Below are positions 10,603 to 62,927 of a stretch of 64,000 nucleotides of DNA, piece after piece. The notes under the pieces are model-generated. The model did no database searches, was not told where the DNA came from, and saw nothing but the letters and a program-made list of their open reading frames with translations. Origin of the DNA: Hymenobacter puniceus (GTDB taxonomy: Bacteria > Bacteroidota > Bacteroidia > Cytophagales > Hymenobacteraceae). Location of the stretch: positions 496,001-560,000 of the forward strand of contig NZ_JACSCX010000003.1 of the NCBI RefSeq assembly GCF_014333525.1, written 5' to 3'. The position numbers were made by a program, and so were the translations under genes. Position 1 is the first letter of the stretch. Every line of letters begins with the position of its first letter.

Positions 10603-10695
10603 CGTCATGCTGAGCCTGCCGAAGCATCTCTCCCGCTTCGTTTGATTACCATTCAGGCAAAGCGGGAGAGATGCTTCGGCAAGCTCAGCATGACG
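10603..10695. repeat. GTCAT-type intergenic palindrome, copy 1
   Basis: Arms 10603-10638 and 10660-10695 are 36 bp each and complementary except at one position, with a 21-base loop. The ends read CGTCATGC and GCATGACG. It lies between convergent genes (GH105 and GH2), where it could act as a bidirectional terminator or mRNA 3' end structure. It belongs to the dispersed family found again near 17.8, 32.2, 35.0, 36.8, 40.2 and 56.1 kb. Confidence 0.9.
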
Positions 10696-17725: not shown

Positions 17726-17753
17726 AACCAGTAAAAAACGGGTACACTCCAGA

Positions 17754-17850
17754 ACGTCATTCCGAGCTTGCCGAGGAATCTCGCGTGCTGATGTCTGAAT
17801 AGTATTTCAACCTCAGCACGCGAGATTCCTCGGCAAGCTCGGAATGACGT
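17754..17850. repeat. GTCAT-type intergenic palindrome, copy 2
   Basis: Arms 17754-17791 and 17813-17850 are 38 bp and perfectly complementary, with a 21-base loop. The core is the TTCC/GGAA flavour (CGTCATTCCGAGC). The second arm ends 17 bases before the ATG of the next gene, so it would sit in or just before that gene's leader. Confidence 0.92.
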
Positions 17851-17867
17851 GCTATCTAGGCGCTATT

Positions 17868-32155: not shown

Positions 32156-32162
32156 ATAAAGG

Positions 32163-32254
32163 CGTCATGCAGAGGCGGAGCCGAAGCATCTCGCCAGAGT
32201 AGTAAATGATGCTACTACACCAGCGAGATGCTTCGGCTCCGCCTCTGCATGACG
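32163..32254. repeat. GTCAT-type intergenic palindrome, copy 3
   Basis: Arms 32163-32194 and 32223-32254 are 32 bp and perfectly complementary; pairing continues outward with a one-base bulge. The loop contains GTAGTA and TACTAC words that can pair again. It lies between the convergent DUF2062 and SseB-like genes. Confidence 0.92.
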
Positions 32255-32270
32255 GCCTTACGGACCCAGG

Positions 32271-34990: not shown

Positions 34991-35004
34991 GCGTGTAAGC
35001 TGCT

Positions 35005-35163
35005 GTCATTGCGAGCAGCGCGAAGCAATCCTTCCTCTGCTTGCTCTAAATCTTCCTATGCAGAAAGCCCTCCGGCACCAGGTTAGCAACCTACTGTCAG
35101 AGGGCTTGTCTGTAAGGGGCGTTTGTCTCAGCGAAAGGATTGCTTCGCGCTGCTCGCAATGAC
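35005..35163. repeat. GTCAT-type intergenic palindrome, copy 4 (TTGC flavour), with internal hairpin
   Basis: Arms 35005-35033 and 35135-35163 (29 bp, GTCATTGCGAGCAGCGCG core) are perfectly complementary and 101 bases apart. Inside lies a second stem, AAGCCCTC at 35065-35072 with GAGGGCTT at 35100-35107, which could be a terminator for the DUF4112 gene. Similar GTCATTGCGAGC repeats are known from many unrelated bacteria. Confidence 0.88.
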
Positions 35164-35170
35164 AAATGGC

Positions 35171-40169: not shown

Positions 40170-40379
40170 AGTGGTGAGGTGATGGGGTGATGAGGTTAGA
40201 GCGTCATTCCGAGCGTGCGAGGAATCTGACGTGCTGACATTGCCAAACTAACCTAATGGAACCGGTAGAGATGCTTCGACAAGCTTAGCATGACGTGCTT
40301 TTTCCAACAACGTCAGCACGCCAGATTCCTCGCACGCTCGGAATGACGGCCTTATATTATCACTTGTCACCTCACCACT
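40170..40379. repeat. Three-layer nested palindrome in divergent promoter region (GTCAT copy 6)
   Basis: The 332-bp gap between divergent genes is mostly repeat. Outer arms AGTGGTGAGGTGA (40170-40182) and TCACCTCACCACT (40367-40379) are exact. Middle arms 40202-40238 and 40312-40348 (37 bp, TTCC flavour) have one mismatch. Inside lies a single arm of the other flavour at 40264-40299 (GATGCTTCGACAAGC core), nearly identical to the right arm at 56.2 kb. I see no other feature in the gap apart from room for the two promoters. Confidence 0.88.
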
Positions 40380-45908: not shown

Positions 45909-48900
45909 TCACCTGGCACAGATGCCTTTGTAGGGGCAATACTGGCACTTGTCGAGGTCGTCGGTTTTGCGGATGGGCTCCTGCGGGTCGAGGATGCGGT
46001 TGATAATGCGGCTCAGCAGCTCCTCGCTGCGAGGCAGGAACTCCTGGCCGTCGTCGGTGAGGAAGCCCATATCGGCGGGCATGGGGCCGGCGGGCAGGTT
46101 GCGCAAAGATATGATGGCCGCATCGGCAGCAGGGCGGCCACTCTGGGCCAGCATGAAGCGGTAGAGCCACAGCTGGCGCACCTTGTCGGCGGAGTAGGTG
46201 GCGTCGAGCACGAGACGCTCGGCAGCGTCGGCGGCGGTTTCGTTGCGCTTCTGCAGCTTCAGCTCGTGGGCCTGCACGAGGCCGGTTTTGTAGTCTACCA
46301 CGCGCAGGCGGCCGTCGGGCAGCTGGTCTACCCGGTCGGCAAAGCCGATAAGCCGCACGGGCAGCTTTTCGCCGCTGGGCAGGGGCACAAACACCGTGGC
46401 GTGCAGCTCTTCCTCCAAGCCCTGAATCTGCAGCGGCAGACCGTCTTTCTCAGCCACCAGTCCTTCCAGATAGCGCCGTACCAGCTGCGAGGCCACCTGG
46501 CCCAGCACATGGTTAAGGCCTTCGTCGGCGCGGGCGTGGCGGTCTTTTTCCTCTTTGCGCAGCGCCTTGGCTACCATCACGGGAGCCAGTGCCACCAGGG
46601 CCGGAATGTCGTTGGCCGTGAGGGCCGGTGCTTTGGGGTTTACCACTTCGCGCCGGATGGTGTGGGCAAACGGCGTGAGCAGGTCTTCCAACGCCTCGTG
46701 CACTACCGTTCCGAAACCATCGGCTCCCAGGGCTTCCTCCACTTCGTCGGCCTCCCGGAACTTGGCTACGCGGTTGAAGTAGAACTTCAGCGAGCAGGCC
46801 AGGTATTCGTTGAGGGCCGTGGGAGAGAGGCCTCTGTCGAGCAACGAGCGCAAAGCCTGGAGCATGCCGGCGTCTTTGTCGAGGACCAGGTCACCTAATG
46901 AGGCCTCACCGCCAGCCGATACCTCACCCCCTAGCCCCCTCGCCAAAAGAGAGGGGGGACTAGTCTCTAGCTTTTTAAAGCCTAGTTCTAACTCTAATTC
47001 CCCCTCTCTTTTGGCGAGGGGGCTAGGGGGTGAAGTCACCGCCACCATATCCTCCAGTACCATCTGCGGGCTTTGGGGCAGCAGGTCGTTCTGGAGCTGC
47101 AGCAGGAAACGGCTTCGCTCGCCGGTGCGGGTGCCTTCGGCGCCGGGCAGCACGTGCACCAAATCTACGCGGCGGGCACGCTGCAGCAGACGCCAGAAAT
47201 GGTAGGCAGTGGCGGCTTCGTGGTCGGCGTAAGTAGGCAGGCGGAACTCGGTCAGCACGTCGTACGGAAATAGCGAGGTGTGGCGCTTGGGGGCCGGCAG
47301 CACGTTTTCGTTGCAGCTGAGCAGGATGATGTGGTCGAAGTCAAGGGCGCGGGTTTCCAAGAGGCCCATTACCTGCACATCGGCAATTGGCTCACCGCTG
47401 AAGGGCAGCCGGGTGCGCGTCATCTGCTCGTAGAGAAACCGCCGAAACGAGCGTACCGACAGCCGCTGCTCCCGGCAGTCGAACACCGAGTCCAGGCGCT
47501 TGACGAGCGTATAAAACAGGTACAGGTACTCGGCCTCTATGGCGGAATGCTGCTCCTGGTACACCTGTTTCAAGAGGTCAATCAGCGTGTAGCAGGCTGC
47601 AATGATGTCGTCGCAGGTGTCCCATGTCTTGAACAGGGCCTGTAGGAGTGGGTGCTCTTTGCCCAGCTCCAGCAGTTCGGTGGCGGGCAGCAGCACGGCG
47701 TTGCGCTTCACAATGGCGCGGCAAATGTGGTCGAGCAGGCCGTGGTACTCGGGGTTGGGCTGCTTGTCGAGCCACTGCTGGTAGCGGCGCAGAAACGGGT
47801 GCCCTAGCAGCTTGGCTACGGCCAAGTGGTGGTAGCGCGGCACGCCGTAGCCGGTTTCGCTGGATCCTTCCCGAATGCCGGTCAGGTGCACCTCAAACAG
47901 TAGGTCCACGAGATTGAACAGCGGCGTGCTTTGGAAGCTGAGGCCCATAGTCACGTTGTAGTCGGGCACGGCATCGGGCGGCAGGCCGTGCAGCACGGGC
48001 AGCAGCAGGGTCTCGTCGGGTAGCACCACGGCTACGGTGCCGGTGGGGTGGGCCAGGCGGGCGGCGGCCAGCAGCTGGCCGGCTACTTTGCCCTGCATGC
48101 TGGCGTTGGCCACGCCCACAAAGCGCACGTGGCGCGGTAGCCCGCGCAGCAAATCGGCCGGCCCGCCAAACGCTTCCAGCGGCAGCTCCCAGCGCGTGAG
48201 GTAGCGGCGCAGGTGCTGGCCGGCGCGGTTGGGCGTGTCGGCATCCATATAAAACGAGTCGCCGTCGAAGCGCACCTCGGCCAAGCCGGCTTTCAGCAGC
48301 AGCTGGATCAGGCGCTCCTCGGCTTTCGAGAGGAAGCCGAGCCCCAGAAAGACGTGCCGCGCCAGCGGTTTGCCCTGTTCCAGCAACTGAGCCACACGCT
48401 CGGCCGCGCGCCGGTATGCCAGGCCGGGATAGGCCACGCGCTGCGCCAGCATGCGTTGGCGCAAGCGGTAGTACACCTTGCTGAGGTCGTCCCAGAAGCG
48501 GAAGTAGCCGGCCGTCATCGACTCCGGCTTCGGCGCTTCGCCCAAATCCCAGCGCTCCAGCGCCTTGGCCTGCGACAGATATTCAAACACTTTGTCGGCG
48601 TTGGCCAGGTTTTGGTCGAGGCTGGAAAAGTCTTCGAGTAGTAAACCTGCCCAACTCACGAAACGATCGAAATCCAGCTTGGGGTCAATGTCCTTAAGGA
48701 TATCGTAGAGCAGTAACTGCAGCGTTATGGGTTCTTCGACCTGCACGCCGGCCAGCTCCACCATGTAGTCTTCCATAGCTGCCACGCGCGGGCTCCACAG
48801 CGCCTCACCGGCATCGGTGGCCATGGCCAACTCGTTTTTGAGGTACACCACCGCCCGCCGCGTGGGTACCACCACCACCAAATCCGACAGCTCCTCGGGG

Positions 48901-48995
48901 GCATAGCGCGCAGTCAGGTCGCGGGCCATCTGGCTCAGAAACGACTCGGTGGAAACAGAAGCAGGCGAAACGAGTGGCGGCAGGAGCGAATTCAT
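45909..48995 (-). CDS. AddB-like PD-(D/E)XK nuclease subunit with in-frame palindromic insertion
   Basis: The ATG at 48995 gives 1028 residues. The N-terminal half is a degenerate helicase fold (DLVVVVPTRRAVVYLKNELA). The C-terminal nuclease shows LRVVDYKTGLV (Asp and Lys of the active site) and a probable 4Fe-4S cluster: Cys in YLACSLKFYFNRV plus CQYCPYKGIC at the end. This is the AddB architecture, working with the AddA-like protein at 50955 to resect double-strand breaks. Residues about 650-690 (TSPPSPLAKREGELELELGF onward) are encoded by a palindromic repeat and look foreign to the fold. A -7 box 5 nt upstream predicts a leaderless mRNA. Confidence 0.9.
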   Translation of the reverse strand: MNSLLPPLVSPASVSTESFLSQMARDLTARYAPEELSDLVVVVPTRRAVVYLKNELAMATDAGEALWSPRVAAMEDYMVELAGVQVEEPITLQLLLYDILKDIDPKLDFDRFVSWAGLLLEDFSSLDQNLANADKVFEYLSQAKALERWDLGEAPKPESMTAGYFRFWDDLSKVYYRLRQRMLAQRVAYPGLAYRRAAERVAQLLEQGKPLARHVFLGLGFLSKAEERLIQLLLKAGLAEVRFDGDSFYMDADTPNRAGQHLRRYLTRWELPLEAFGGPADLLRGLPRHVRFVGVANASMQGKVAGQLLAAARLAHPTGTVAVVLPDETLLLPVLHGLPPDAVPDYNVTMGLSFQSTPLFNLVDLLFEVHLTGIREGSSETGYGVPRYHHLAVAKLLGHPFLRRYQQWLDKQPNPEYHGLLDHICRAIVKRNAVLLPATELLELGKEHPLLQALFKTWDTCDDIIAACYTLIDLLKQVYQEQHSAIEAEYLYLFYTLVKRLDSVFDCREQRLSVRSFRRFLYEQMTRTRLPFSGEPIADVQVMGLLETRALDFDHIILLSCNENVLPAPKRHTSLFPYDVLTEFRLPTYADHEAATAYHFWRLLQRARRVDLVHVLPGAEGTRTGERSRFLLQLQNDLLPQSPQMVLEDMVAVTSPPSPLAKREGELELELGFKKLETSPPSLLARGLGGEVSAGGEASLGDLVLDKDAGMLQALRSLLDRGLSPTALNEYLACSLKFYFNRVAKFREADEVEEALGADGFGTVVHEALEDLLTPFAHTIRREVVNPKAPALTANDIPALVALAPVMVAKALRKEEKDRHARADEGLNHVLGQVASQLVRRYLEGLVAEKDGLPLQIQGLEEELHATVFVPLPSGEKLPVRLIGFADRVDQLPDGRLRVVDYKTGLVQAHELKLQKRNETAADAAERLVLDATYSADKVRQLWLYRFMLAQSGRPAADAAIISLRNLPAGPMPADMGFLTDDGQEFLPRSEELLSRIINRILDPQEPIRKTDDLDKCQYCPYKGICAR
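46924..47033. repeat. C-rich palindrome inserted in frame in the AddB-like gene
   Basis: Arms 46924-46957 and 47000-47033 are 34 bp and perfectly complementary (TCACCCCCTAGCCCCCTCGC core), with a 42-base spacer. The whole is read through as about 40 residues rich in Ser, Pro, Glu and Gly. The same CACCCCCTAGCCCC word occurs in the AddA-like gene. Confidence 0.93.
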
Positions 48996-49000
48996 AGCTA

Positions 49001-49008
49001 GTAAAGAT
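49001..49008 (-). promoter_or_regulatory. -7 box TATCTTTA of AddB-like gene
   Basis: One mismatch from TAnnTTTG, five bases before the ATG at 48995; predicted leaderless start. Confidence 0.45.
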
Positions 49009-49111
49009 ACCCTGTAAGCGGCCAGCAAGGGCGCTGTCAAGCATAGAATTGAGCGAATAACCTGTGGCCGCCACGACTATTGCCCCTAAGCGCCCTCATT
49101 TTCAATTAATC

Positions 49112-50954: not shown

Positions 50955-53900
50955 CTAAAACAGCACCACTTCCTCGGAGCCGAAATAGTAGAGCACGCAC
51001 ACCACTTCGCGGTAGCCGAGCTGCCGGAACAGCTGCGCGTACTGCTGCAGCGGCAGGCGGTGGGTGGGGCTGGGCGGCGGCACCTTGAAATCGAGGAGCG
51101 TGACGCGTACCTCACCACGGCCAGTGGCGCCGGGCAGTGTCTCAAACACCACCCGGTCGGGCTTGTAGTCGCGCCGCTTCACGCCGCCCACCAATATTTC
51201 GCGCTCCGTCTCTACGCTTACGTCGGCGCTGAAGTAGCGGGCCAGCTCGGGGTGCGCCACTACCTGCTGCAGACGCTGCTCCAGCGCCGCCCGCTCCCGC
51301 CCGCTGATGAAGCCCTCGGCGGCCAGCTGCCGGCCTACACGCTCCACATCCTCAGCCAGCAGCAGGCGGCGCAACCCATAGTGCAGCTTGCGGTTCCACT
51401 CGCCTAGCTGCCCCTGCCGGTCGAAATCGAACACGGTAGTGGCGTGGCGGCGCAACCGCAGCCGCTCTTCCCAAGGCGCGGTTTCGAGGTTGGTGAGGTG
51501 GAAGTTATGGGTGGTCGGCTGGTCGTTTTTCAGGTCAGCTTTGGCAGCGGTGCCCTGCGAAACCACAAATGATACCTGCTCTTCATTCCACAGCTGTTGC
51601 TGTTTGAGGTAGCTGTGCAGCAGCTCGGCCACGTTTTTGGCGGGCCCTTCCGGAGCGGTGTCATCGGTGGCTTTCCTGCTGGGCTCGGGCCGTTTGCTGA
51701 GGATGTAGAGCCGGTGCCGCGGCCGGGTGAGGGCCACGTACAGCATGTTGAGGCCTTCGAGGAAGGTTTTTTCGCGCTCCTGCAGCAGCTGCCCGGCCAG
51801 GGCCGTACGGCTCAGGTTTTTGGTGAGCGGCACCACTGCCACGGCTGGCATGTCGGCCACCGGCTTGTCGTCTTCATTGAGGCGGCCCCACAGCAGCGTG
51901 CCCCGGTGCGGCTCCAGGCTCCAGTCGGCGAAGGGCACAATCACCACTCCGTAGGCCAGGCCCTTGGCCTTGTGCACCGTGGTGATGGTAATGGCGTCGC
52001 GGCCGGCGGGGGCGTTGATGCTGAGGTTGCTTTTGCGCTGCTCCCAATAGGCCAGAAAGTTGTTGAGGTTGTTGCCGTAGCGCAGACTGTATTCCAAAGT
52101 CAGGTCCAGAAACCGGAACAGGTACTCACTCTCGCCGTTGCGGCCCAGCAGACCAAACAGCCCAATCAGCCGCTCGGTCAGCTCATACAGGCCCAGGTTG
52201 CCGGTTTCCTGCTCCTGAAGGTCGTAGCCCAGCGTTCGGAACTCCTCGAAGAAATCCGCCGCCGACTCCGCATTGGCCAGCTTTGCCAAATGGCGCACGC
52301 GGGCCGGGGTGGGGGCCACGCGGCGCACCACTCTATCCAGCAGCAGCAGCGCCTCGGCCCGGGCCAGCGTGTCGGCTGGCTGGTTGAGCACCCGGTAGAT
52401 GGCCACCAGCAGGTTCACCACCTCCGCAAATTCCAACGACAGCGAATCGGCGGAAATAATATCGTAGCCGCGCTCCTTCAAAAACTTGGCGACCAGCCGG
52501 CTGCCCCGCCGCGTGCGGCTCAGCACCGCCACGTCGCGCGGCCGGAATCCGTCGCGCAGCGCCTGCTGCACCAGCGCCAGGGTCAGATACAGCGTGCTTT
52601 CGTCGTAGTCGAGCGTGGCCTCCGGCAAATAGCCCGGCAGCGGCCCCGCGTCGTAGGTGCCATCCTGCGGGTGGTAGGGCCGAGCCGGCGCCTCGTTGCC
52701 GGTGAACAGAATTTCCACGTGGCCGGCCGGGGCCTCACCCCCTAGCCCCAGGCCGGGCGCCTCACCCCCCCGGCCCCCCTCTCCCTTTGGAGAGGGGGCT
52801 AGGGGGTGAGGCGCACGGGAGAGGGGGCTAGGGGGTGAGGTCCGGCCCGGCACCGTCTGCCGGAACCCTGGCTCAAACAAGTCCTGCACCAGCGCAAAAT
52901 CGGGGTGTTGGGTACGTAGGTGGCTGAAGAACTCGTTATTGAAATCCACGATTGCGGCCGCCGAGCGGTAGTTCACGTTCAGCGACTTCGGCTCTAGGCG
53001 GCCCTGCAGGCCCTGGTAGCGCTCCTGTAGCAGCCGCTGGGTTTCGGGTTCGGTGGCGCGGGCGGCCAGGGCATCGGTGTTGTCTTGGTGCAGGCGCAGA
53101 ATCTGCTCCATCTCGCCGCCGCGCCACCGGTAGATGGCCTGCTTGGCGTCGCCCACGGCCAGGTTCAGGTTGTCTTTGCCCACCGAGTTTTCCACCAGCG
53201 GCAGCAGGTTGTTCCACTGCAGCACCGACGTATCCTGAAACTCGTCAATCAGCAGGTGATTGTACCGCTCGCCCAGCCGCTCGTACAGAAACGGCACCGG
53301 CTCCTTCAGCACGATGGCGGCAATGCGGCGGTTGAATTCACTGATAAGCACTACGTTCCGCTCGCGGCTCACCTGCTCCACTATCTTGTTCAGCTCACTC
53401 AGCAGCGAGGCATGGAACAGGTAGGGCTGCATGGCCGTGAGCAGCAGATACTGGGGCAGCAGCACGTCGCGCAGCTTCTCAAACTGCTCGTAGGCGGTCT
53501 GCAGCACAGGTTTGGCGGCGTCTACGCGCTGGCGGTCCGCTTCGGTTTTCACTTTGCCGCTGTACCATTTGTCCTGGTCGAGGGTGATGCGTACGTAAGA
53601 GTTGGCTTCCTTGTCGGGCAGCAGGCGCTCCTCCCATTTGGTGGCGTACCCAAAGATGCCACTGCGGCCCTGGTAGAGGTCGGCGTCCGTTACGCCGGCT
53701 TCGGTTAGCGCCTCCGCGGCCAGCGTGCCCACGTCCCGGAACAGGTTCTCAATGACTTCGCGGCGCTGGCGCATGGTGTCGTGCAGGCGGCGGAAGTCCT
53801 GGAGCGTGAGCGTCTGGAGCTGCGCCACGGCCTCGTGCACAGTTTCGTTGAAGAGGAACTGCCCGAAACCGGCCAGCTCGTCGGGCAGGTTGTTCCAGCT

Positions 53901-54479
53901 TTTGCCTTCGTCGGCGCGGCTCAGGGCGTACTCGGTGAGGGTGCGGGCCAGCAGTTGGGAGTTTGGGTCGCGGTTCACTTTGTCGAGCAGGGCGGCCACG
54001 GCGGTTTGCAGCACGGCGTCGGTGTCCAGCTCCACCTCAAACGTGGCCGGCAGCTCCAGCTCCCGCGTGAAGGCCGTCACGATGCGCTGCACAAACGAGT
54101 CGATGGTGCTCACCGCAAAATCGGCGTAGTGGTAGAGCACCAGCCGAAACGTTTCCTGAGCCCGGCGGCGCACTTCCTGCTGGCGTTCCTCGGCGGTTTC
54201 GGTGCGGCGCGGCAGCAGCCCTTCGGCGGCCAGCTCCTCGGCCACTTCGGCCAGCAGCGCATCCGTTTCGCCGGCTTTGGGGTAAGCAAACTTGCGCAGC
54301 GCCCCAATGATGCGCTGCTTCATCTCGCCCGCCGCGTCGTTGGTGAACGTAATGGCCAGCACCTGCTTGAAATACGCCGGGTCCTCGCTGCCCAGCGCCA
54401 GCTTCAGATACTCCTTGGTAAGCTGATACGTTTTGCCGGAGCCGGCAGAAGAAGAGTAGATGCGGAAGGTTGCGGGCAT
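50955..54479 (-). CDS. AddA-like UvrD-family helicase-nuclease with in-frame palindromic insertion
   Basis: A 1174-residue protein. Superfamily 1 motifs: Walker A SSSAGSGKTYQLTKEYL, ITFTNDAAGEMKQRI, Walker B HLLIDEFQDTSVLQWNNLLPL, AVGDAKQAIYRWRGG, ITTVHKAKGLAYGVVIVP, and NMLYVALTRPRHRLYIL. The C-terminal 150 residues contain YKPDRVVFE and VTLLDFKVPP, consistent with a PD-(D/E)XK nuclease. It is the expected partner of the AddB-like protein. Residues about 545-580 (RTSPPSPLSRAPHPLAPSPK onward) come from a palindromic repeat inside the helicase region. Between AddB and AddA lie an exporter and a GldL-like gene, so they are not one simple operon. Confidence 0.92.
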   Translation of the reverse strand: MPATFRIYSSSAGSGKTYQLTKEYLKLALGSEDPAYFKQVLAITFTNDAAGEMKQRIIGALRKFAYPKAGETDALLAEVAEELAAEGLLPRRTETAEERQQEVRRRAQETFRLVLYHYADFAVSTIDSFVQRIVTAFTRELELPATFEVELDTDAVLQTAVAALLDKVNRDPNSQLLARTLTEYALSRADEGKSWNNLPDELAGFGQFLFNETVHEAVAQLQTLTLQDFRRLHDTMRQRREVIENLFRDVGTLAAEALTEAGVTDADLYQGRSGIFGYATKWEERLLPDKEANSYVRITLDQDKWYSGKVKTEADRQRVDAAKPVLQTAYEQFEKLRDVLLPQYLLLTAMQPYLFHASLLSELNKIVEQVSRERNVVLISEFNRRIAAIVLKEPVPFLYERLGERYNHLLIDEFQDTSVLQWNNLLPLVENSVGKDNLNLAVGDAKQAIYRWRGGEMEQILRLHQDNTDALAARATEPETQRLLQERYQGLQGRLEPKSLNVNYRSAAAIVDFNNEFFSHLRTQHPDFALVQDLFEPGFRQTVPGRTSPPSPLSRAPHPLAPSPKGEGGRGGEAPGLGLGGEAPAGHVEILFTGNEAPARPYHPQDGTYDAGPLPGYLPEATLDYDESTLYLTLALVQQALRDGFRPRDVAVLSRTRRGSRLVAKFLKERGYDIISADSLSLEFAEVVNLLVAIYRVLNQPADTLARAEALLLLDRVVRRVAPTPARVRHLAKLANAESAADFFEEFRTLGYDLQEQETGNLGLYELTERLIGLFGLLGRNGESEYLFRFLDLTLEYSLRYGNNLNNFLAYWEQRKSNLSINAPAGRDAITITTVHKAKGLAYGVVIVPFADWSLEPHRGTLLWGRLNEDDKPVADMPAVAVVPLTKNLSRTALAGQLLQEREKTFLEGLNMLYVALTRPRHRLYILSKRPEPSRKATDDTAPEGPAKNVAELLHSYLKQQQLWNEEQVSFVVSQGTAAKADLKNDQPTTHNFHLTNLETAPWEERLRLRRHATTVFDFDRQGQLGEWNRKLHYGLRRLLLAEDVERVGRQLAAEGFISGRERAALEQRLQQVVAHPELARYFSADVSVETEREILVGGVKRRDYKPDRVVFETLPGATGRGEVRVTLLDFKVPPPSPTHRLPLQQYAQLFRQLGYREVVCVLYYFGSEEVVLF
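52731..52840. repeat. Nested C-rich palindromes inserted in frame in the AddA-like gene
   Basis: An outer pair, GGCCTCACCCCCTAGCCCC at 52731-52749 and its counterpart ending GGGGGCTAGGGGGTGAGG at 52823-52840, encloses an inner palindrome at 52759-52812 (GCCTCACCCCC arm, TTTGG loop region, GGGGGTGAGGC arm). The frame stays open and encodes a Pro/Gly/Ser-rich stretch. It shares its core with the insertion in the AddB-like gene. Confidence 0.9.
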
Positions 54480-56117: not shown

Positions 56118-56220
56118 AAGCACGTCATGCTGAGCTTGTCGAAGCATCTCTACCGCTTCACCGGATTAGCACTGCAACGAAGCGGTAGAGATGCTTCGAC
56201 AAGCTCAGCATGACGTGCTT
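56118..56220. repeat. GTCAT-type intergenic palindrome, copy 7
   Basis: Arms 56118-56159 and 56179-56220 (42 bp) are perfectly complementary, the longest perfect arms of the family here. It lies between the cold-shock terminator and the helicase promoter. Together with the terminator, promoter and leader it accounts for the 432-bp gap between the two genes. Confidence 0.93.
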
Positions 56221-58386: not shown

Positions 58387-58444
58387 CCCACAGCACAAAT
58401 TGTGCAGATTGAGTTGATTTCGCAGATTTCAAGTTGAACTGCAA

Positions 58445-58486
58445 AACGCAAAAGAGCCACTTCATTTGAAGTGGCTCTTTTGCGTT
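58445..58486. terminator. Bidirectional terminator after cold-shock helicase gene
   Basis: A perfect 20-bp stem, 58445-58464 with 58467-58486, with a two-base loop and A/T-rich ends on both sides; suited to terminate transcripts from either direction. Confidence 0.88.
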
Positions 58487-58694
58487 GATTGGGGTTTGAT
58501 GAGCAGCTTTCTTCAAGTTATAGCGGTTTCCCGAACGGTACAGAGACTCGACCCTTCGCGTCTTCTCGTGCCGAGCCGCCTCCGCAAAACCGTTCAATGC
58601 CAAGACGCGAAGTGTCGCGTTTCTACAGTAGCCGTACACTGTTTACAAAACCGCTCTATTTACTGCTACCAATTCTGTATTCAGAGAAACGCAT

Positions 58695-58729
58695 AAAGAA
58701 AGCCGCCCCACTACGGAGCGGCTTTCTTT
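58695..58729. terminator. Terminator hairpin downstream of DUF2383 gene
   Basis: AAAGAAAGCCGC (58695-58706) pairs with GCGGCTTTCTTT (58718-58729). The minus-strand DUF2383 gene ends at 58785, so this is its likely terminator. Confidence 0.8.
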
Positions 58730-58784
58730 GTGTCGATAAAAGTCGAAATCTGCGAAATCAACTTAATCTGTACAATATGTGCTG

Positions 58785-59234
58785 TTACTTCTTGGCAGCG
58801 TCGCGCAGGTCACGGATTTCATCGTGGCCCTGCTTGATGCCGGCCGCCTGCTTCTCAATGATAGTTTTGATGGCAGCCGGCACGTCCTGAATCTTCTGGG
58901 CTTTCTCGTAGGCCGCTTTGGCGTAGTCTTCGCCCCGCTCGCACTCGGCGAGGATGCTGTGCCGGTCTTTGCTGGTTACCAGGCCTTTTAGGTTAATGAA
59001 CGCGCGGTGAATGGTACCGGTGATAGACGACTCTTCCTCGGGATGCAGGTTGAGCTTGTGCATCTGGTCTTCCAGCTCGGTGATGTAGGCAGAGCGCTGA
59101 GCGGCGTATTTTTTGAAGGTTTCCTTCAGGTCAGCGTCCTCAACGTCGGTCAGTGCTTCGGCGTAGCCTTTTTGGCCGTCCTTCAGGGTTTCAAGTAGTT
59201 CGTTGAGGCCGGCTTGCAGTGCTTTAGCTTCCAT
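58785..59234 (-). CDS. DUF2383 (PA2169-type) four-helix protein
   Basis: The ATG at 59234 gives 149 residues, all-helical: LNELLETLKDGQKGYAEALTDVED, FKKYAAQRSAYITELEDQM, SSITGTIHRAFINLKGLVT, and SILAECERGEDYAKAAYEKA. The GxxGY and ECERGEDxA segments fit DUF2383, a ferritin-like family found in general stress contexts. Function unknown; iron binding is only a fold-based guess. The outer arm of the neighbouring inverted repeat reaches its stop codon. Confidence 0.87.
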   Translation of the reverse strand: MEAKALQAGLNELLETLKDGQKGYAEALTDVEDADLKETFKKYAAQRSAYITELEDQMHKLNLHPEEESSITGTIHRAFINLKGLVTSKDRHSILAECERGEDYAKAAYEKAQKIQDVPAAIKTIIEKQAAGIKQGHDEIRDLRDAAKK

Positions 59235-61875: not shown

Positions 61876-62754
61876 ATGTCAGCTCATCCGTACGCTCAGC
61901 CTATGCTTCGCGACAATGCACTCCAAGGTAAAACCATCGTCGTGACGGGCGGCGGCACTGGCCTGGGGCGCGCCATGACTACTTATTTTCTTGAACTGGG
62001 GGCCAACGTAGTTATCAGCAGCCGCAAGCTGGACGTGCTGGAGAAAACAGCCGCCGAGCTGCGTGAGCAAACCCAAAACCAGAATGTGCTGGCTGTGCAG
62101 TGCGACGTGCGCAAGTACGACGAAGTGGAAGCCATGCTGCAGCGCACCATCGACACGTTTGGCGGCGTGGATGTGCTGCTCAACAACGCGGCCGGCAACT
62201 TCATCAGCCCTACGGAGCGCCTGAGCCATAAGGCGTTTGACGTGATAGTGGACATCGTGCTGCGCGGCTCCTACAACTGCACGCTGGCCTTTGGTAAGCG
62301 CTGGATTGCCGACAAAAAGCCCGGCACCATCCTTAACATCGTCACGACCTATGCCTCCGTAGGCTCGGCCTACGTGGTGCCTTCGGCTGCTGCCAAAGCC
62401 GGCGTGCTGGCCATGACCCGCTCGCTGGCCGTGGAGTGGGCCAAGTACGGTATCCGCTCCAACGCCATTGCGCCCGGCCCATTCCCGACGGAAGGTGCCT
62501 GGAGCCGCCTGTTTCCGGAGCCGCTGGCCAAAAAGCTCGATCCGGCGGCCTCCGTGCCCCTCAAGCGCGTCGGCGACCACCAGGAACTGGCCAACTTGGC
62601 GGCTTACATGGTGTCGGATTTCTCGGCCTACATGAACGGCGAAGTTGTGACCCTGGACGGCGGCGAGTGGCTCAACGGCGCCGGCGAGTTCAACAAGCTC
62701 GAAGCTATTCCGGCCCCGATGTGGGATGAGATTGAAAAAGCCATGCGCCGATAA
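61876..62754 (+). CDS. 2,4-dienoyl-CoA reductase-type SDR oxidoreductase
   Basis: A 292-residue protein. The NADPH-binding VVTGGGTGLGRAMTTYFLELGA and LLNNAAGNFISPTERLS are standard SDR. The active-site region reads YASVGSAYVVPSAAAKAGVLAMTRSLA, with Ser in place of the catalytic Tyr of YxxxK, as in mitochondrial-type 2,4-dienoyl-CoA reductases. APGPFPTEGAWSRLFP is also typical of that group. It would reduce polyunsaturated enoyl-CoA during beta-oxidation. It is convergent with the DUF1571 gene across an inverted repeat. Confidence 0.9.
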   Translation: MSAHPYAQPMLRDNALQGKTIVVTGGGTGLGRAMTTYFLELGANVVISSRKLDVLEKTAAELREQTQNQNVLAVQCDVRKYDEVEAMLQRTIDTFGGVDVLLNNAAGNFISPTERLSHKAFDVIVDIVLRGSYNCTLAFGKRWIADKKPGTILNIVTTYASVGSAYVVPSAAAKAGVLAMTRSLAVEWAKYGIRSNAIAPGPFPTEGAWSRLFPEPLAKKLDPAASVPLKRVGDHQELANLAAYMVSDFSAYMNGEVVTLDGGEWLNGAGEFNKLEAIPAPMWDEIEKAMRR

Positions 62755-62927
62755 ATCACGGATTTCCACGGATTTTACGCGGATTTTGTAGTCGGCGCTA
62801 TTCCGCATTGTTTGACCATAATACATAAAAAGAGGCTTGCCGTTTGGCAAGCCTCTTTATTTTAAGTGAACGGCAATCGACTACAAAATCCGTGTAATCC
62901 GCGTAAAATCCGTGGAAATCCGTGATT
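62754..62927. repeat. Stop-to-stop inverted repeat enclosing a terminator
   Basis: Left arm 62754-62794 and right arm 62878-62927 are identical in reverse complement apart from one extra 9-base unit on the right. Arms consist of GGATTT-containing units (CACGGATTTCCACGGATTTT). The left arm starts on the last base of the SDR stop codon; the right arm ends inside the stop codon of the DUF1571 gene. Confidence 0.93.
62826..62864. terminator. Bidirectional terminator between convergent genes
   Basis: AAAGAGGCTTGCC (62829-62841) pairs with GGCAAGCCTCTTT (62846-62858), flanked by A and T runs on both sides. Confidence 0.9.

Follow-up and report, generated by a model that had tools for sequence, protein, structure and literature searches.

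The window analyzed here, a stretch of 64,000 nucleotides from Hymenobacter puniceus (contig NZ_JACSCX010000003.1, positions 496,001 to 560,000), contains the genes for two partner subunits on its reverse strand. The AddB-like gene (45909..49040, minus strand) is an open reading frame of 1043 amino acids with a PD-(D/E)XK nuclease domain (PF12705 at residues 738-1041) and a weak match, below the cut-off, to the NCBIfam AddB model. The AddA-like helicase gene (50955..54479, minus strand) is an open reading frame of 1174 amino acids with UvrD-helicase and UvrD_C domains. Inside the AddB-like gene lies a short REP-dimer-like element (46921..47036). It consists of a 34-nt arm that is itself a C-rich hairpin (CCCCCTC..GAGGGGG; 46924..46957, plus strand), a 42-nt A+T-richer loop with CTAG words and no stop codon in the AddB frame (46958..46999), and a second 34-nt arm (47000..47033, minus strand). 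The original prediction of two perfect arms around a 42-base spacer was borne out by a reverse-complement check. The hairpin repeat spans 110 bases between the outer ends of the perfect arms, and extended arms (46921-46963 and 46994-47036) of 43 nt each are 93% complementary.

The palindrome has inserted in frame in the AddB-like gene, in a disordered linker that joins the helicase-like part of the protein to the nuclease. That it is coding and in frame at this position had been claimed from the sequence, and both points hold: the reading frame remains open for 1043 amino acids, and the nuclease begins only at residue 738. The insert itself, previously placed at residues of about 650-690, falls at residues 670-706 when recomputed. 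In an AlphaFold structure prediction built from 29 orthologues, residues 671-715 form the sole long internal disordered stretch, with pLDDT values in blocks of 26-38 between neighbors at about 80-90.

We fetched and aligned about 70 Hymenobacter orthologues of AddB. As had been anticipated, most of them are without the palindrome and have a short or unrelated linker, including the AddB of H. duratus, which is 87% identical overall. Conservation of the segment in distant genera would have pointed to an ancestral part of the protein, and in three distant relatives (L091-L093) the linker is short. Several Hymenobacter species have similar C-rich arms at this linker. For example, in G002, H. psychrotolerans, and H. 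telluris, whose AddB proteins are 94% (residues 3-683), 91%, and 81% identical to that of the window, similar arms surround an in-frame DUF559 domain (PF04480). This nuclease-bearing form of the family in sister species was absent from the original prediction. Because the linker varies in sequence among orthologues and carries similar arms or unrelated palindrome-like peptides in different species, it is a place where insertions repeatedly land or survive; repeated use of the same linkers may reflect mere tolerance. Other palindrome-like peptides (QLPVA../TTDNQQ.., EELGM../PHSSL, NTQHRIPNTQHP) occupy the linker in L033, L050, L075, L080, L082, L101, L102, and L106. The AddB genes of H. qilianensis (L086) and G010 (C1 around 3816886-3819860) are spread over several frames, reflecting either a broken gene or sequencing errors.

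The AddA-like gene contains a second, rearranged copy of the element (52730..52848), in frame and encoded from residue 547 onward. This site is clean and empty in the two nearest species, H. psychrotolerans and H. duratus, and is occupied by a regular dimer in G002 and by the DUF559 form in G003 and in Hymenobacter sp. BT18, whose chromosome is closed (NZ_CP050954). Long and short forms of the element share the AddB and AddA linkers in different species. The reading frame across the AddA site is preserved (mod 3 = 0) in all loci read, and comparison with empty AddA sites, where host sequences are too diverged, gave no clear target-site duplication. An assembly error at the AddB palindrome is unlikely, because similar in-frame elements are present in AddB of other species and in AddA of the closed BT18 genome. 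In G003 (L166) the frame of AddA is lost past the right arm of the DUF559 element; in BT18 it is intact.

The arms have an outer end CCTCACCCCC and a 10-bp stem CCCCCTCTCC; CTAG is found at their inner ends, and CGTC in only some copies. The hairpin units occur as inverted dimers in many copies per genome, with 30 arms in the genome of the window (G000) and 11 to 119 in six Hymenobacter genomes; these are copy counts alone, since a reversed-pattern control is an unfair null for palindromic arms and was not used. Within the window, the 18-mer TCACCCCCTAGCCCCCTC occurs exactly four times, and five matches with up to three mismatches were found compared to 0.08 expected from shuffled sequence. 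REP dimers, or BIMEs, of the GTAG and CGTC superfamilies (Di Nocera 2013, PMC3733652) are likewise inverted hairpin pairs, mostly intergenic and in some cases in frame in repair genes. The Hymenobacter element differs from them in its outer end and stem and in having DUF559 rather than RAYT as partner protein, and we rejected membership in either superfamily: there is no GTAG, and the stem departs from the CGTC rule of A-T pairs first. A RAYT-driven REP was ruled out by the absence of any match to the RAYT-type (Y1) transposase family PF01797 in G000. Large palindromes of another type (CGTCATGCTGAG../GTCATTCCGAGC..), with arms 86-100% complementary and a resemblance to CGTC-tagged REPs, lie in the window at 10603-10695, 17751-17853, 32157-32260, 35004-35164, 40187-40363, and 56118-56220. 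Inverted repeats of other sequence, for example 32-nt perfect arms around 110 nt, are found at 58390-58785 and 62754-62927.

The original prediction regarded in-frame behavior as unusual for a C-rich element, a view that the analysis does not support. REPs in frame in genes, recB included, had already been described (PMC3733652), as had in-frame Rickettsia palindromic elements (PMC3733652, PMC10969869), and similar in-frame elements occur in many genes of related genomes. Short copies were found in PBP1C (two species, at a nearly identical position), a CoA-transferase fusion (two species), a glycosyltransferase (three species), methylmalonyl-CoA mutase, GcpE, an ABC ATPase pair, an RND pump, and AddA, although the intragenic copies retrieved with the AddB protein as query are biased toward the AddB frame. 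Enumeration of dimers from DNA in G002 served as a less biased check. In G000 and G002, intragenic dimers spanned by a gene measure about 105-130 bp and have an open frame, whereas intergenic dimers are mostly longer and mostly without one. This difference fits filtering after insertion rather than ribosomal bypass.

The nuclease-bearing form is also present in the genome of the window. One complete DUF559 copy in G000 (C8:907836-908159) forms a C-terminal fusion with a PurQ-type protein and lies exactly between arms at 907765 and 908286; a second PF04480 match is weak and partial. At the level of the family, the short elements share their terminal repeats with the DUF559-coding element, in G000 and at the AddB and AddA linkers elsewhere, but the subfamilies differ: the arms in the window are of the CCCCCTAGCCCCC type and those of the genome's own DUF559 element are of the CCCCCCGGCCCCC type. 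In G009 (L160), a DUF559 copy does have a TAG-type arm beside it. Because arm subfamilies differ, simple internal deletion of the long form seen in G002 AddB was rejected as the only route to the copy in the window.

Matches to PF04480 were found in 170 of 296 Bacteroidota genomes, and in this phylum DUF559 is usually bracketed by C-rich hairpins and often lies in frame inside host genes. With a stem of at least 9 required on both sides and Fisher p values computed, hairpins flanked 33/48 loci from Hymenobacter and its order and 26/47 from a phylum sample (59/95 in total; these fractions are estimates from mostly strong matches). The corresponding values were 1/53 and 1/93 (2/146 in total) for controls shifted by 1 kb and 2/30 and 0/28 (2/58 in total) for YraN (PF02021), a small nuclease-fold gene used as a matched control. 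Among loci in large open reading frames, two-sided hairpins were present at 7 of 20 compared to 0 of 40 controls. Inverted arms shared between the two sides (at least 33.4 bits) were detected at 56/115 DUF559 loci, 0/186 shifted controls, and 0/58 YraN loci; at several DUF559 loci no arms were detectable. Hairpin-bracketed examples also occur in Cyanobacteriota, Alphaproteobacteria, and Deinococcota, and 5 of 12 plasmid loci from Cyanobacteriota, Pseudomonadota, and Deinococcota had two-sided hairpins compared to 1 of 24 controls. On two Deinococcus plasmids (L379, L382), DUF559 occupies different intergenic spots in the same hpa gene cluster, with hairpins flanking.

Hosts of in-frame DUF559 domains include LeuRS (just before the editing domain), MetH (between the B12-binding domains), HsdR (at two different sites), HsdM, and type ISP and Eco57I-type enzymes. 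Sites in AddA, AddB, PurQ, MetH, LeuRS, and HsdR are common to several species and patchily occupied. In one HsdR (L226:175-3315), a GIY-YIG domain is inserted in frame as well, at a position other than that of the DUF559 domain. Purifying selection acts on the DUF559 nuclease domain, with dN/dS of 0.02-0.14 for host-embedded copies where measurable. Its nearest solved relative outside DUF559 is the homing endonuclease I-Bth0305I, which we take to come from a group I intron. The PDB entry for that enzyme (3r3p) calls it a mobile intron protein, and it resembles DUF559 in sequence (E=0.002) and in fold, the DUF559 structure model itself being of low confidence (pLDDT 61). The nearest PDB entry overall is 3hrl, the DUF559 protein NGO0050 of Neisseria gonorrhoeae (E=3e-26), which belongs to the same family and differs in being a stand-alone structure entry. 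An intron or intein was ruled out, as Pfam scans gave no Hint (intein) domain among the hosts and Rfam gave no match in L072, L074, and L159.

The tree of DUF559 domains is discordant with host relationships. At the AddB site, the nuclease of G002 has that of H. telluris as its sister (100/98), that of H. psychrotolerans clusters with nucleases from the AddA site (96/66), and those at the PurQ site belong to at least three lineages. A comparison of G000 with G013 shows 85-95% identity over about 13 kb, with the PurQ element near the middle of this tract, and 66-81% in the flanks. Homing with co-conversion would leave this pattern; ordinary transfer would look alike, and this is one case.

We favor a homing-like nuclease element with REP-like ends as the source of these insertions, because DUF559 is kin to I-Bth0305I and because no intron, intein, or RAYT was found. 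The palindrome in the window would then be a short, REP-dimer-like copy, non-autonomous, of a mobile element that bears a nuclease and is not spliced out, a reading to which we assign a probability of roughly 0.6. The proposed element ends in a C-rich, REP-like hairpin arm on each side, the two being inverted relative to each other, and its long form carries between them the small Vsr-like PD-(D/E)XK nuclease domain. We infer that the nuclease cuts alleles that lack the insertion or have diverged, and that the element then spreads through repair templated by the copy that bears it, as in homing. The arms may serve as structures for recognition or repair, and copying of the arms without the nuclease gene would yield the short copies. 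Without splicing, an insertion would persist only if it is in frame, free of stop codons, and in a linker that tolerates it, so the peptide is presumably made as part of AddB. Chances seem to us about even that DUF559 is the mobilizing enzyme of a broad, unrecognized class of hairpin-ended, nuclease-bearing elements that stay in frame and unspliced in host proteins, essential ones among them, and that REP-like short copies are their non-autonomous offspring.

Alternatively, the short element could be an ordinary REP or MITE moved by an unrelated transposase, with DUF559 a passenger that landed at hairpins or was captured between two REPs. Short copies far outnumber the nuclease-bearing ones, as this explanation would have it, and REPs in other organisms have been linked to RAYT transposases (PMC3733652, PMC2817692). 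We nevertheless consider it unlikely, given that G000 has no match to the Y1/RAYT family and that matching hairpins on both sides of DUF559, across Bacteroidota with examples from other phyla, exceed what chance landing would give. It is considerably less probable that the insert is removed or skipped, by RNA excision, intein-like splicing, or ribosomal bypass, and that the peptide is never part of AddB. Folded as RNA, the element does form an extreme hairpin (-96 kcal/mol, z = -13.9). However, intragenic copies stay in frame and stop-free, which would be needless for bypass or excision, host-embedded DUF559 is selected as a protein, and the Rfam and Pfam scans described above gave no intron and no Hint domain. 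Selection of the insert for tuning of the AddAB complex in repair, a role suggested speculatively where REPs lie in repair genes (PMC3733652), is least credible of all: both subunits carry elements here and in sister species, and recB REPs occupy an identical site in two Xanthomonas species (PMC3733652), but close species differ by gains and losses of elements, which are also found in the unrelated PBP1C, GcpE, and methylmalonyl-CoA mutase, and the AddB insert is predicted to be disordered.

The homing-like element that we favor resembles several known systems in part. The likeness to Rickettsia palindromic elements noted in the original prediction is apt, as the palindrome is translated in frame and is absent from most orthologues; those elements, known from work by Ogata and Claverie, are palindromic mobile repeats of about 100-150 bp translated in frame in unrelated genes (PMC10969869, PMC3733652). 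They are described as differing in sequence and phylum, and the available excerpts of these sources mention no nuclease-bearing relative at the same site. MITEs of insertion sequences (PMC10969869) are also short, non-autonomous copies that share terminal repeats with a coding element; here, however, the coding element encodes a Vsr-like nuclease and no recognized transposase. Homing endonuclease genes such as that of I-Bth0305I share the small PD-(D/E)XK, Vsr-like nuclease, fixed host sites, and patchy presence. They differ in that no intron or intein was found here, the nuclease stays in the host protein, and REP-like hairpins mark its bounds.

In-frame REPs and Rickettsia palindromic elements lacked an explanation for mobility where RAYT is absent, and DUF559 provides a testable candidate. 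No report linking REPs to DUF559 was found in the literature searched, which consisted mostly of titles and abstracts. If our interpretation is correct, C-rich REPs would have in DUF559 a nuclease equivalent of RAYT, many of the long chimeras that databases list as "DUF559 domain-containing" would be invaded host proteins, and selfish nucleases could persist in genes without splicing. In two genomes (G110 and G160, both estimated to be 100% complete), a nuclease with a homing endonuclease fold is tolerated inside the only leucyl-tRNA synthetase, which is 1127-1142 amino acids long with the insert compared to 1000 amino acids in two relatives without it.
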